Source of the DNA: a virus
DNA length: 30,710 nt
Virus record (IMG/VR): IMGVR_UViG_3300020470_000132
Span: 1-30,710 of that record
Strand: one strand, 5' to 3'
The position numbers were made by a program, and so were the translations under genes. Position 1 is the stretch's first letter; every line of letters starts with the position of its first letter. The notes under the pieces were generated by a model. That model had not been told where the DNA came from and searched no databases. It saw nothing but the letters and a program-made list of their open reading frames with translations. Positions 9,837-13,689 of the stretch are shown in pieces.

Positions 9837-9842
9837 TTGTGG

Positions 9843-9850
9843 TTAAATAA
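9843..9850 (+). promoter_or_regulatory. Late-promoter-like element upstream of hsp20
   Basis: TTAAATAA differs by one base from the T4/cyanophage late promoter NATAAATA recognised by the gp55-type sigma factor with the gp45 clamp. It lies 57 nt before hsp20 in the only gap between the RegA/oxygenase operon and hsp20, which supports a promoter role. The single mismatch keeps confidence moderate. Confidence 0.45.
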
Positions 9851-9853
9851 TAG

Positions 9854-9870
9854 TGTCGCCTTCGGGGACA
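9854..9870 (+). other. UUCG-capped hairpin in hsp20 leader
   Basis: TGTC-(G bulge)-CC-TTCG-GG-GACA forms a 6-bp stem with one bulge and a very stable C(UUCG)G tetraloop. It begins a few nucleotides after the putative late promoter, so it would sit at the extreme 5' end of the hsp20 mRNA. 5' hairpins often protect phage mRNAs from decay. A thermosensing role is not supported because the hairpin does not cover the ribosome binding site (AAGGAG near 9893-9898). Confidence 0.45.
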
Positions 9871-9906
9871 TCAAAACACAAACTCGCTTAAAAAGGAGCT
9901 AAGACC

Positions 9907-10332
9907 ATGAATACTCTAACAAGATATCGTGCTGCCGATTTGCCAGAATTAATGGATCGGATCAGCAAAAACAGTATAGGATTGGACAACTATTTCAATC
10001 AGTTCTTCGATCTTAACACACATAATTATCCACCTTATAACATTGTTAATGTTAGCAACGTACAATCTCGACTGGAGGTTGCACTTGCAGGGTTCAAGAA
10101 GTCCGAAGTAAAAGTCTATACCGAATATGGTAAACTTATTGTTGAAGGCAATAAGGAAGACAAAGACGGATCAGACTATGCCCATAGAGGTATGGCTCAG
10201 AGAAACTTTACTAGAGAGTGGACTTTATCAGATGACGTAGAAGTACGGAAGGTAAACTTCGAAGACGGACTTCTACAGGTAGATCTAGGTAAAGTTGTTC
10301 CAGAACACCATGCTCGTAAAGACTACCTCTAG
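9907..10332 (+). CDS. hsp20: Small heat shock protein Hsp20 (alpha-crystallin family)
   Basis: An ATP-independent chaperone, common in cyanomyoviruses. The 141-aa protein has a poorly conserved N-terminal arm and an alpha-crystallin domain from about 45 to 135: YNIVNVSNVQSRLEVALAGF, KVYTEYGKLIVEGNKED, HRGMAQRNFTREWTLSDDV and VNFEDGLLQVDL. The usual GVL signature near the end appears as DGLLQVDL. A strong ribosome binding site (AAGGAG) precedes the start. It has its own leader with a late-like promoter and is followed by a strong terminator, so it is probably a monocistronic late unit that protects virion assembly or host proteins during infection. Confidence 0.93.
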   Translation: MNTLTRYRAADLPELMDRISKNSIGLDNYFNQFFDLNTHNYPPYNIVNVSNVQSRLEVALAGFKKSEVKVYTEYGKLIVEGNKEDKDGSDYAHRGMAQRNFTREWTLSDDVEVRKVNFEDGLLQVDLGKVVPEHHARKDYL

Positions 10333-10353: not shown

Positions 10354-10381
10354 AAGGGGGTGCTTGACACCCTCTTTTTTT
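10354..10381 (+). terminator. Strong intrinsic terminator after hsp20
   Basis: A 9-bp stem pairs 10354-10362 with 10368-10376 (one G-U pair, five-base loop CTTGA at 10363-10367) and is followed by further T to 10381. It lies 22 nt after the hsp20 stop. The 3' arm and loop overlap the -35 box of the next promoter. Confidence 0.88.
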
Positions 10382-10392
10382 ATGTGTATAAT
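10364..10392 (+). promoter_or_regulatory. Perfect consensus sigma-70 promoter
   Basis: TTGACA at 10364-10369, an exact 17-nt spacer and TATAAT at 10387-10392 match the bacterial housekeeping promoter at all 12 positions with ideal spacing. The expected transcript start is near 10398-10400 (GGT). Host-like promoters drive early genes in T4-type phages. It would transcribe the structured leader, the paralogous small genes and DNA polymerase. The -35 box lies within the preceding terminator hairpin. Confidence 0.88.
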
Positions 10393-10397
10393 TTAAA

Positions 10398-10605
10398 GGT
10401 TGCACTGACGGGTGTAACAGGGAGTGACTGAATAACCCTGTTGGCAATAGGCGGGGTAATGTGATGCGTTAGAGGTGGTGCTCGCTCTTCGGAGAACCCT
10501 TCACCAAGGGAACGCAGGTTGGTCGGACTATTAACATCCTTAGCGATGCCCCGATCATGTTGGTATAAGGAACCCAACCTCCCACTAAACATTCAATAGA
10601 TTACT
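10398..10605 (+). ncRNA. Highly structured non-coding leader or small RNA
   Basis: About 207 nt with stops in all + frames, directly behind the perfect promoter. By-eye helices are: 10399-10405/10412-10418 (7 bp); 10416-10422/10436-10442 (AACAGGG/CCCTGTT, 7 bp, mutually exclusive with the first at its edge); 10465-10470/10511-10516 (TGCGTT/AACGCA); 10485-10487/10492-10494 with a UUCG loop; 10497-10501/10506-10510 with loop CACC; and 10516-10522/10574-10580 (AGGTTGG/CCAACCT, 7 bp). The CACC loop could pair with GGTG at 10474-10477 as a pseudoknot. No terminator separates it from the gene at 10606, so it may be a 5' leader or may be processed. I do not recognise it as tmRNA, RNase P, SRP RNA or 6S RNA. 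Confidence 0.6.
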
Positions 10606-10929
10606 ATGGCTATTAAACTACTCTTACTCCAGTCTAATGAAGAAGTTATTGCAGATGTACAAGAGTTAGTGGATGAAAATGATAAGCCAATCTTTATTGT
10701 ATTAACCAATCCATTTATTGTTAAACTTGTAGAGAATCCTGAATTGGAGATGTTGAATGAGAGTACATCCAATCAGCCTAGATATAGTGCAAGGTACTAT
10801 GAATGGATGCCTCTATCAAAAGAGAAAAGATTCGCAGTTAATCCTGATTGGATAGTAACAGCAGTCGAACCCATAGATGCCGTTATGGAGTCCTATAAGG
10901 AGAAGATGGATGGAATCGGAAGAAATTAA
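10606..10929 (+). CDS. Small beta-rich protein, possible Sm-like fold (paralog 1)
   Basis: A 107-aa protein with alternating beta segments: IKLLLLQSNEEVIADVQEL, PIFIVLTNPFIVKLVE, YYEWMPLS and IVTAVEPIDAVMESYKEKM. The first segment (strand, turn with Glu-Glu-Val-Ile, strand) and the Val-Thr-Ala-Val-Glu-Pro near the end resemble Sm1/Sm2 motifs of Lsm/Hfq-type proteins, but this is inference. It resembles the next gene product in order and spacing of motifs. No clear Shine-Dalgarno precedes the ATG; it lies 25 nt after the last helix of the structured leader, so translation may depend on that RNA. Confidence 0.6.
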   Translation: MAIKLLLLQSNEEVIADVQELVDENDKPIFIVLTNPFIVKLVENPELEMLNESTSNQPRYSARYYEWMPLSKEKRFAVNPDWIVTAVEPIDAVMESYKEKMDGIGRN

Positions 10930-11188
10930 TGTACAGTTATTGATACTGGTTAATAATGAAGTTATAATCAGTAAGATTGAGGAAGTTGCTGCTTTGGATA
11001 TTGGAGATCCAAATTGTAAACTTATCTCACCATATAAAGTTGAAGAAAAAGATAAGATTAGTCCTTGGTTGAGTGATTTAACTGATGATGATGTTATAAT
11101 GATATGCTCAGATAAGATTCTAACTTTGGTTGAACCACATAAGTCCCTTACTGACCTTTACTTACAAAGAGCCACCACATCAGAATAA
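10910..11188 (+). CDS. Small beta-rich protein, paralog 2, coupled to gp43
   Basis: The start at 10910 follows AAGGAG (10897-10902) by 7 nt and overlaps the previous gene by 20 nt. The 92-aa product repeats the plan of its neighbour: INVQLLILVNNEVIISKIEE, a middle strand CKLISPYKVEE, then DVIMICSDKILTLVEPHKS and a C-terminal helix. Shared features are LL-L-x-N-E-V-I at the start and a V-E-P near the end, which suggests tandem duplication and divergence. Its stop overlaps the DNA polymerase start (TAATG). Function unknown; an RNA-binding Sm-like role is speculative. Confidence 0.6.
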   Translation: MESEEINVQLLILVNNEVIISKIEEVAALDIGDPNCKLISPYKVEEKDKISPWLSDLTDDDVIMICSDKILTLVEPHKSLTDLYLQRATTSE

Positions 11189-13689
11189 TGAGGTTTTACA
11201 CTAACGTTTTCCTAATTGGTAACAGCATTCTGATTAGGGGATACGAAGATGGTAAACATTTTAGTGACAGAGAGGAATTCCGTCCTACTTTTTTTGTTCC
11301 AACAAAGAAGAGATCTAAATGGAAAACACTTGATGGAACTCCAGTAGAACCAGTTAAGCCTGGTACTATAAAAGACTGTAGAGAATTTAGAGAGAAATAC
11401 GCTCAGGTTCAAGGGTTTGATATCTATGGTAATGATAGGTATGCCCATCAATATATTTCTGAGAAGTATCCAGAGGCAGAAATAAAATTTGATATTAGTA
11501 AGATTAAACTTATAACGATTGACATCGAGGTTGCTGCAGAGAGTGGTTTCCCTGATGTTTTTAATTGTGCAGAAGAACTCCTTCTTATTACAATTCAAGA
11601 TTATAATACCAAGGAGATCATAACTTGGGGAACTAGACCATATACAACAAACAATAAAAAGAACCACCGTTATATCGACTGCCATAACGAGGAAGGGTTG
11701 ATCAATGAATTCATAGGGTGGTGGCAAACAAACACGCCTGAGGTCATTACAGGGTGGAACTGCGAACTATATGACATACCTTATTTGATGGGACGTATTG
11801 AACGTCTTATGGGTGAGAAGGTAGCGAAGAAACTTTCTCCTTGGAATATTGCCAGGAAGAATGAGATTAGAATTCAAGGTAGAGATAATATCTCATATGA
11901 TATCGCAGGGGTATCTGTAATTGATTATCTTGATCTCTATCGGAAATCTCCTGCTACTCCTAACCAAGAGAGTTATCGATTGGATCATATTGCTATGATG
12001 GAACTCGGTCAGAAGAAATTAGACCATAGTGAGTTTGATACTTTCCGTGAGTTTTATAGTAAGAATTGGCAGAAGTTCGTTGATTACAACATTGTTGACG
12101 TAGAATTGGTTGACAGACTTGAGGACAAGTTGAAACTTCTTGACTTGACTTTTACTCGTGCGTTTGACGCAAAGATTAATTTTGCTGATGTTGCCTTTCA
12201 GGTACGTTGTTGGGATGCAATAATTTTCAATTATCTAAAGAAGAAAAATATTGTCATACCTCAAAAAGAAAGGAATGAGAAGGATGAGAAGTATGCTGGT
12301 GCATATGTAAAAGAACCAAAACCTGGCAAATATGATTGGGTGGTTAACTTTGACCTTAACTCACTGTATCCTCATTTGATTATGCAATATAATATCTCAC
12401 CAGAGACATTATTGGATAGAAAACATCCTAGTGCCACTGTAGATAAATTATTGAATCAGGATATATCTTTTGAGGATTATAAGGACTATGCTGTGTGTGC
12501 CAATGGTGCAATGTTCAGGAAGGATAAGAAAGGATTCTTACCTGAGTTAATGGAGAAGATGTATAACGAGAGGGTCATCTTTAAGAAGAAGATGATTAAG
12601 GCAAAAAAAGAATATGAAAAGAATCCAAGTGTTGCTTTAGAGAAGGAGATTGCTCGTTGTGACAACATTCAAATGTCAAAAAAGATTGCCCTTAATAGTG
12701 CCTATGGTGCTATTGGTAATCAATATTTTCGTTATTATAAACTTGCCAATGCAGAGGCCATCACACTCTCTGGACAAGTGTCAATCCGATGGATTGAGGA
12801 TAAGATGAATTCTTATCTGAACAAATTATTGAAAACTGAGGAGGTTGATTATGTTATTGCTTCTGATACCGATTCCATTTATCTTAATATGGGTCCTGTG
12901 GTTGAGGCTGTATACAAGGGGCGAGAGAAAACTACTGAGGGCGTTGTTGGGTTCCTTGACAAGGTGTGTGAAACTCAACTTGAACCTTATATTGAAAGTT
13001 CTTACGAAGAATTGGCCAGGTATGTCAACGCCTATGCCCAAAAAATGTTCATGAAACGTGAGAACATTGCCGATAGAGGTATATGGACTGCGAAGAAACG
13101 TTATATTTTAAATGTATGGGATAGTGAAGGAGTCAGATATGAAAATGCAAAACTTAAAATTATGGGTATTGAGGCGATTAAAACCTCAACTCCTACACCA
13201 TGTCGTAAGTTCTTGAAGGATGCCTTTAGTCTATTGATGACAGGTACGGAAGATGAGGTGATTGATTATATTGAGGAATGTAGAGAGAAGTTTAAGTCTC
13301 TTCCTCCAGAGGATATTGCCTTCCCTAGATCTGTTAGTCAGATTGATAAGTGGAAGAACTCAACTACTTTATATGAGAAGGGATGTCCTATACACGTTAG
13401 GGGAGTGATATTATATAATCATTATACTAAGAAGAAGAAACTCGATCAGAAGTATCAGGCTATCCAGAGTGGTGAGAAGATCAAGTTTTGTTATTTGAAG
13501 ACTCCTAATCCAATTCATGAAAATGTTATGTCATTCATACAGGATTTTCCACATGAATTAGATTTGGATAAGTATGTTGATTATGAACTTCAGTTCAATA
13601 AGTCTTTCATTGAACCCATTAAGGTTATTCTTAATTGTATTGGCTGGAGTGTTGAACGTAAGAATACATTGGAAGGATTTTTTGCATAG
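11188..13689 (+). CDS. 43: DNA polymerase, family B (T4 gp43-like)
   Basis: The replicative polymerase with 3'-5' exonuclease, 833 aa (T4: 898). Exonuclease motif I is IDIEV with Asp112 and Glu114. Exo II lies around TGWNCELYDIPYL (188-200) and Exo III at YNIVDVE (300-306). Polymerase motif A is NFDLNSLYP (387-395, Asp389), motif B is KKIALNSAYG (498-507), and motif C is ASDTDS (558-563, Asp560 and Asp562). The C terminus NTLEGFFA resembles a clamp-binding PIP-type peptide, which fits docking to gp45. It is intact: no intein, intron or split is seen. It starts on TAATG after the small paralog and ends on TAGTG with the next gene. Confidence 0.97.
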   Translation: MRFYTNVFLIGNSILIRGYEDGKHFSDREEFRPTFFVPTKKRSKWKTLDGTPVEPVKPGTIKDCREFREKYAQVQGFDIYGNDRYAHQYISEKYPEAEIKFDISKIKLITIDIEVAAESGFPDVFNCAEELLLITIQDYNTKEIITWGTRPYTTNNKKNHRYIDCHNEEGLINEFIGWWQTNTPEVITGWNCELYDIPYLMGRIERLMGEKVAKKLSPWNIARKNEIRIQGRDNISYDIAGVSVIDYLDLYRKSPATPNQESYRLDHIAMMELGQKKLDHSEFDTFREFYSKNWQKFVDYNIVDVELVDRLEDKLKLLDLTFTRAFDAKINFADVAFQVRCWDAIIFNYLKKKNIVIPQKERNEKDEKYAGAYVKEPKPGKYDWVVNFDLNSLYPHLIMQYNISPETLLDRKHPSATVDKLLNQDISFEDYKDYAVCANGAMFRKDKKGFLPELMEKMYNERVIFKKKMIKAKKEYEKNPSVALEKEIARCDNIQMSKKIALNSAYGAIGNQYFRYYKLANAEAITLSGQVSIRWIEDKMNSYLNKLLKTEEVDYVIASDTDSIYLNMGPVVEAVYKGREKTTEGVVGFLDKVCETQLEPYIESSYEELARYVNAYAQKMFMKRENIADRGIWTAKKRYILNVWDSEGVRYENAKLKIMGIEAIKTSTPTPCRKFLKDAFSLLMTGTEDEVIDYIEECREKFKSLPPEDIAFPRSVSQIDKWKNSTTLYEKGCPIHVRGVILYNHYTKKKKLDQKYQAIQSGEKIKFCYLKTPNPIHENVMSFIQDFPHELDLDKYVDYELQFNKSFIEPIKVILNCIGWSVERKNTLEGFFA

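Follow-up and report, generated by a model that had tools for sequence, protein, structure and literature searches.

The region between hsp20 and the DNA polymerase operon of the virus record analyzed here (30,710 bases, hereafter the window) encodes a manA RNA, and comparison of phage genomes inclines us to see it as a stand-alone, probably trans-acting RNA located behind early promoters and not as a switch controlling the adjacent gene. An Rfam covariance-model scan returned a full-length match to RF01745 at 10401–10588 on the plus strand (cmscan, model positions 1–192, 122 bits against a cut-off of 55.2, E = 1.5e-31). This was the sole Rfam match in the window at curated cut-offs, and the conserved letters of the family (GGGAGUGACUGAAUAA, GUGGUG, ACCA, AUGCCC, and CCUCCC) were all found in the window. 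The first-pass annotation had described a structured non-coding RNA directly behind a promoter, which is borne out by the Rfam match, covariation, and promoter position, and had added that no known family fits, which was wrong: the very scan it suggested as a check identifies manA.

On the strength of this match, the window RNA is a member of an already known family, the manA motif of Weinberg et al. 2010 (RF01745; PMC2864571), the alignment of which was corrected in Rfam 14 (PMC7779021). It is like the published manA RNAs in the full-length match, the helices, and the conserved letters, as well as in the kind of host genome (a T4-like marine cyanophage) and the hsp20 neighborhood (published contexts include ibpA). 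However, the window copy is divergent, with 122 bits compared to 170–197 for many relatives, and, unlike in the published contexts, it precedes the gp43 operon. The nearest named relative of the window copy is found in S-SSM7 (GU071098), with which it has in common the regA-hsp20-gp43 neighborhood, the structural subtype, and the genomic site, although the order in S-SSM7 is promoter, manA, tRNA-Gly, and phrog_431-type gene, and the window has no such tRNA. The wcaG motif (RF01761), another structured RNA of marine and cyanophage sequences proposed, as manA was, to be a riboswitch (PMC2864571) and located near manA in S-CREM1 (PMC9964418), is a separate family with no match in the window.

We then evaluated the structure across relatives. 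Contigs with manA were gathered from IMG/VR by a conserved 16-mer and from named phages by blastn, and 80 non-redundant copies plus the Rfam consensus were aligned on sequence alone; the helices were projected from the consensus (the window's own row in the plain MAFFT alignment mis-registered several of them). With P1 excluded, 3525 of 3784 cells (93.2%) were paired and 27 of 49 pairs displayed both-sided changes, versus 35–49% of cells paired and 5–9 pairs with double changes in controls for which the 3′ partner was slid by 1–3 columns, with the caveat that the 80 copies are related and these counts are not independent events. Of the ten column pairs that covary most strongly, seven are pairs of the model. 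Covariation in homologs and sequence conservation in relatives, both of which the first-pass annotation had named as decisive for its RNA, are thus present, the former far above the slid controls. The folding energy of the window RNA alone was not unusual (z = 0.25) and would have missed manA; the significance of this RNA derives from the Rfam match and covariation, not from folding energy.

The RNA opens with the P1 hairpin (10401–10416, +), located at the predicted 5′ end, and the P1 region folds with a mean of −6.8 kcal/mol across 80 relatives, compared to −1.9 when shuffled. Next comes a domain (10420–10583, +) closed by GGGAG (10420–10424) with CUCCC (10579–10583), a helix whose invariance follows from how the sample was assembled; a compensated version (GGGTG/CACCC) is found in P-HM1 and MED4-213, and two further copies include uncompensated single changes. 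Within this domain, helices were located on the plus strand at 10465–10470/10511–10516, 10472–10474/10481–10483, 10497–10500/10507–10510, 10520–10526/10551–10557, and 10559–10563/10574–10578, along with a three-pair hairpin (10485–10487/10492–10494) capped by a UUCG tetraloop (10488–10491). The latter occupies the variable-hairpin position of the family, where the consensus has a GAAA loop and the helix covaries strongly in relatives. A small helix (10532–10535/10543–10546) and part of 10440–10445/10451–10456 are poorly paired in the window. The first reading from the letters alone had thus correctly located at least five self-complementary blocks and the UUCG tetraloop, all within 190 nt behind the promoter, and two of its finer points hold in part. 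The loop contact it proposed is possible as UGGU (10476–10479, +) with ACCA (10503–10506), the GGTG/CACC register it gave being off by one base; as all 80 relatives have GUGGU and ACCA unchanged, this contact is beyond the reach of covariation. Similarly, its competing 5′ helix exists in the window (AACAGGG at 10416–10422 with CCCTGTT at 10436–10442) and rivals P1, but is probably a chance pairing because relatives, inspected by eye, retain at most GGG/CCC. The CCUCC segment looks similar to the 16S rRNA 3′ end, but it is the pairing partner of GGGAG, and we set the resemblance aside.

In the window, hsp20 (9907–10332) is followed by an intrinsic terminator read from the sequence (10355–10380, +), with an 8-bp stem (10355–10362/10368–10375), a CTTGA loop, and a T run. 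The −35 box of a sigma-70 promoter (TTGACA-N17-TATAAT, 10364–10392, +) sits within the loop and 3′ arm of this terminator, and the promoter matches the consensus at 12 of 12 positions, i.e., it is as perfect as initially described. Transcription is predicted to start around 10399. The genes that follow, phrog_431 (10606–10929), phrog_483 (10877–11188), and gp43 DNA polymerase (11188–13689), all on the plus strand and identified with PHROGs, presumably share one transcript with manA: neither terminator nor tRNA lies between 10588 and 10606, and manA is a potential 5′ UTR, 18 nt ahead of the ATG at 10606 across a terminator-free gap. Reading the sequence confirmed that this ATG has no Shine-Dalgarno, so that neither of the two expression-platform elements sought 3′ of manA in the window (terminator or Shine-Dalgarno) was found. 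The compact fusion of terminator and promoter, with the −35 box inside the terminator loop and arm, is found at cyanophage sites both with and without manA (window, 10355–10392; S-SKS1, L353 ~1668–1725; P-TIM68, L354 ~1245–1290). Separately, the segment ahead of hsp20 (9841–9906) contains a TAAATA-like late promoter, the hairpin TGTCGCCTTCGGGGACA, and then ACTCGCTTA and, ahead of the ATG, AAGGAG; this block recurs in front of hsp20 in ~12 IMG/VR loci and is possibly a regulatory leader.

The promoter position is a property of the family. Upstream sequence was long enough for evaluation in 132 copies, and in 118 of them a sigma-70 promoter with 11 or 12 of the 12 consensus bases stood just ahead of P1, compared to 5 of 1185 controls, and in 44 (vs. 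7 of 1185 control positions) the −35 box overlapped an intrinsic terminator, as in the window. Only four copies had a promoter score <9 (L010, L059, L112, and L060): in L112, a tRNA-Thr detected by ARAGORN ends 5 nt ahead of the manA match, L010 and L059 have the same upstream sequence as L112, and a tRNA-Gly-like sequence was seen by eye upstream in L060. A terminator-like hairpin was detected ≤100 nt 3′ of manA in 58 of 189 loci (3 in mononucleotide shuffles), and in 7 loci a tRNA starts 5–19 nt past manA, while about two thirds of loci, including the window, have neither between manA and the next gene, the first reading frame often lying 20–30 nt downstream. These terminator-like hairpins differ in sequence from locus to locus, and no common expression platform was seen across manA loci, most of which, window included, are without a terminator.

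We next considered how manA is distributed within and between genomes. Exactly one match was obtained in each of the 18 carrier records searched whole (16 named phages, including P-TIM40, P-SSM2, P-RSM4, S-SSM5, and twelve more, plus two long IMG/VR records), yet these single copies occupy seven or more kinds of place; the exception to the single-copy pattern is a short contig with two copies (G111). Specifically, manA was found after gp23 in P-RSM4, S-SSM5, MbCM1, MED4-213, P-HM1, and P-RSM1, between nrdB and talC in P-TIM40, P-TIM68, and P-RSM6, after pstS in P-SSM3, P-SSM4, and S-SSM4, after ferredoxin in P-SSM7, between regA and purL in P-SSM2, ahead of the gp43 operon in S-SSM7, and ahead of gp32 in P-HM2. 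Over 190 distinct loci, the first recognized gene was gp32 (55), TalC (32), a gene of the gp43 operon (22), Hsp20 (12), or PurS/L (4), the remainder including many rare cases. The neighbors are thus non-random, with gp32, talC, the gp43 operon, and hsp20 totaling 121 of 190 loci, and they are also diverse, with neighbor proteins forming 38 clusters on the downstream side and 49 on the upstream side, some of them merged by over-long reading frames. A manA tree with context labels suggested at least 91 context changes over 180 rows; this tree is poorly resolved and came without a shuffled control, and we do not rely on it.

A case of relocation involves the close relatives P-HM1 and P-HM2 (Eurybiavirus PHM2), which are 87–89% identical around gp23 and 81–92% identical beside gp32. 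At the gp23 site, P-HM1 has manA where P-HM2 has ~40 nt, and at the gp32 site, P-HM2 has manA where P-HM1 has ~24 nt, the two copies being 86% identical. The P-HM2 copy begins just past the gp32 promoter, which P-HM1 has too, while the P-HM1 copy comes with a dedicated promoter and terminator and is followed by a gene equipped with a late-type promoter and Shine-Dalgarno of its own. At the site corresponding to the window's, S-SKS1 and P-TIM68 have a fused terminator and promoter in front of phrog_431 without manA, the P-TIM68 copy being located elsewhere.

Taken together, manA seems to be a property of the genome and not of a gene, and a stand-alone trans RNA is therefore the reading we favor, if by a modest preference. 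In this reading, manA is a phage-specific structured RNA, normally one per genome, set exactly behind a strong sigma-70 promoter such that transcription would begin at the P1 hairpin. Its place is free, behind whichever promoter adjoins and often next to early replication or nucleotide genes (gp32, gp43 operon, talC, hsp20). It would be made during infection and act in trans, the leading guess being that its target is a host factor, which it would bind or act on as a decoy. In some phages, a terminator of its own or a tRNA within a few bases delimits the RNA, and manA appears to form a transcription unit independent of its neighbor in P-HM1 and at the loci with such boundaries. This does not extend to the window, where the phrog_431–phrog_483–gp43 transcript would begin with manA (~190 nt), perhaps excised later. 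Because nothing separates it from phrog_431, the window copy is probably a physical 5′ leader as well, and cis control is possible there. Nevertheless, the initial suggestion that it may control translation of the small paralogs and gp43 is not supported, since S-SKS1 and P-TIM68 have the same terminator, promoter, and operon without manA, and since manA adjoins unrelated genes in other phages; action in trans, mentioned in the same annotation as an alternative, has become the better supported option from genome comparison, while still unproven.

The published reading is the main competitor: manA would be a cis-acting leader, perhaps a riboswitch sensing a metabolite or infection state, that controls the gene behind it, i.e., the gp43 operon in the window. 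Weinberg et al. rated manA as certainly cis-regulatory and probably a riboswitch (PMC2864571), and the location of manA directly behind a promoter with a reading frame shortly after, its preferred neighbors, and its being a physical leader in about two thirds of loci all fit this role, as does the promoter–RNA–terminator order, which is also expected of an attenuating riboswitch. The present evidence questions this role, however: a single copy per genome shifts between unrelated genes, the same operon and promoter exist without it, a tRNA separates it from the gene in 7 loci, the next gene in P-HM1 has its own promoter, and the loci have no visible common expression platform. We thus regard a cis-acting switch as a serious but distinctly less probable explanation. 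A generic cis-acting 5′ stabilizer or translation enhancer of early mRNA that senses nothing is improbable. Structured 5′ ends can protect mRNAs, and a position after the strong promoters of early genes in high demand would suit such a role, but an element of this type would be expected many times per genome rather than once, and several copies are cut off from any gene by a terminator or tRNA. More unlikely still, manA could mark a movable replication start whose transcript remains hybridized to the DNA as a primer for synthesis, by analogy with T4 origins and ColE1 RNA II. One copy, a free position, a strong promoter, and a structured RNA would fit, but we found no manA in eight T4-like cyanophages (Sf-FR1, S-PM2, Syn9, S-RSM4, S-SM1, S-ShM2, Syn1, and Syn19), and manA is therefore not needed for replication in general. 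Finally, despite the ordinary single-sequence folding energy and the short genes annotated inside manA, the idea that the folding is chance or that the stretch codes for small proteins can essentially be discarded, being refuted by the 122-bit family match and the covariation. These hypothetical genes, found in public phage records (L228 2506–2682, L230 2590–2721, L232 2570–2744, and L234 2541–2714), are probably spurious.

Many relatives of the window copy have a second structured element: a hairpin (CCTAAGATGCAA...GGGCAGATGG) whose internal loop, TAAGATGCAA/GGGCAGATG, is conserved, located ~9–12 nt 3′ of manA, as in L041 (1157–1189, −), L016 (3494–3526, +), L056 (2900–2932, −), and overall ~120 IMG/VR loci. 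Combining a scan for the hairpin alone with the loci collected earlier yielded 122 occurrences; for the 101 with at least 200 nt available upstream, manA was scored upstream of 100, and the last was recognized as manA by eye. A T run follows this hairpin in some loci and not in others; the hairpin has no Rfam match and is absent from the window. Two identities were rejected: abiF RNA, reported near manA in S-CREM1, had no Rfam match there even at an E-value of 5, and a leader peptide is not consistent with loop lengths that vary out of frame.

With regard to hosts, one of 266 genomes searched from the Prochlorococcus genus group contained manA, on a phage-like single-cell contig with Eurybiavirus-like DNA (QCLS01000003.1), and 400 genomes of that family yielded no further match. 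A match in the Nonlabens xiamenensis assembly was set aside: the contig (NZ_RMVE01000006.1) is 99% identical to P-TIM40 over the 8 kb compared and is probably a phage contaminant. A search of 394 genomes of a Shewanella's order, run without a positive control, gave no manA match. By blastn and record name, 20 phage records for Prochlorococcus and 9 for Synechococcus matched manA, compared to 24 and 387 gp23-matching records, respectively. These proportions (20/24 vs. 9/387), which rest on record names and include duplicate records and related phages, suggest a link to host, with manA seemingly far commoner in Prochlorococcus-named T4-like phages than in Synechococcus-named ones. A broader picture, which we offer tentatively from these comparisons, is that of a movable, single-copy trans RNA, apparently concentrated in Prochlorococcus phages, that would lodge at transcription starts and neutralize or recruit a host factor, with the hairpin behind manA as a second module.

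Since 2010, manA has been classed as a candidate cis-regulatory riboswitch without an assigned function, and among the open-access papers searched we found none describing how manA moves, how many copies a genome carries, or the hairpin that accompanies it. One caution is that metabolic meaning should not be inferred from the genes next to manA. Importantly, the single-copy pattern, the relocation between P-HM1 and P-HM2, and the empty sites now provide a concrete reason to seek a trans-acting RNA, and the existing RNA-seq of P-HM2 infection, in which intergenic reads were counted (PMC5082946), may bear on this question.
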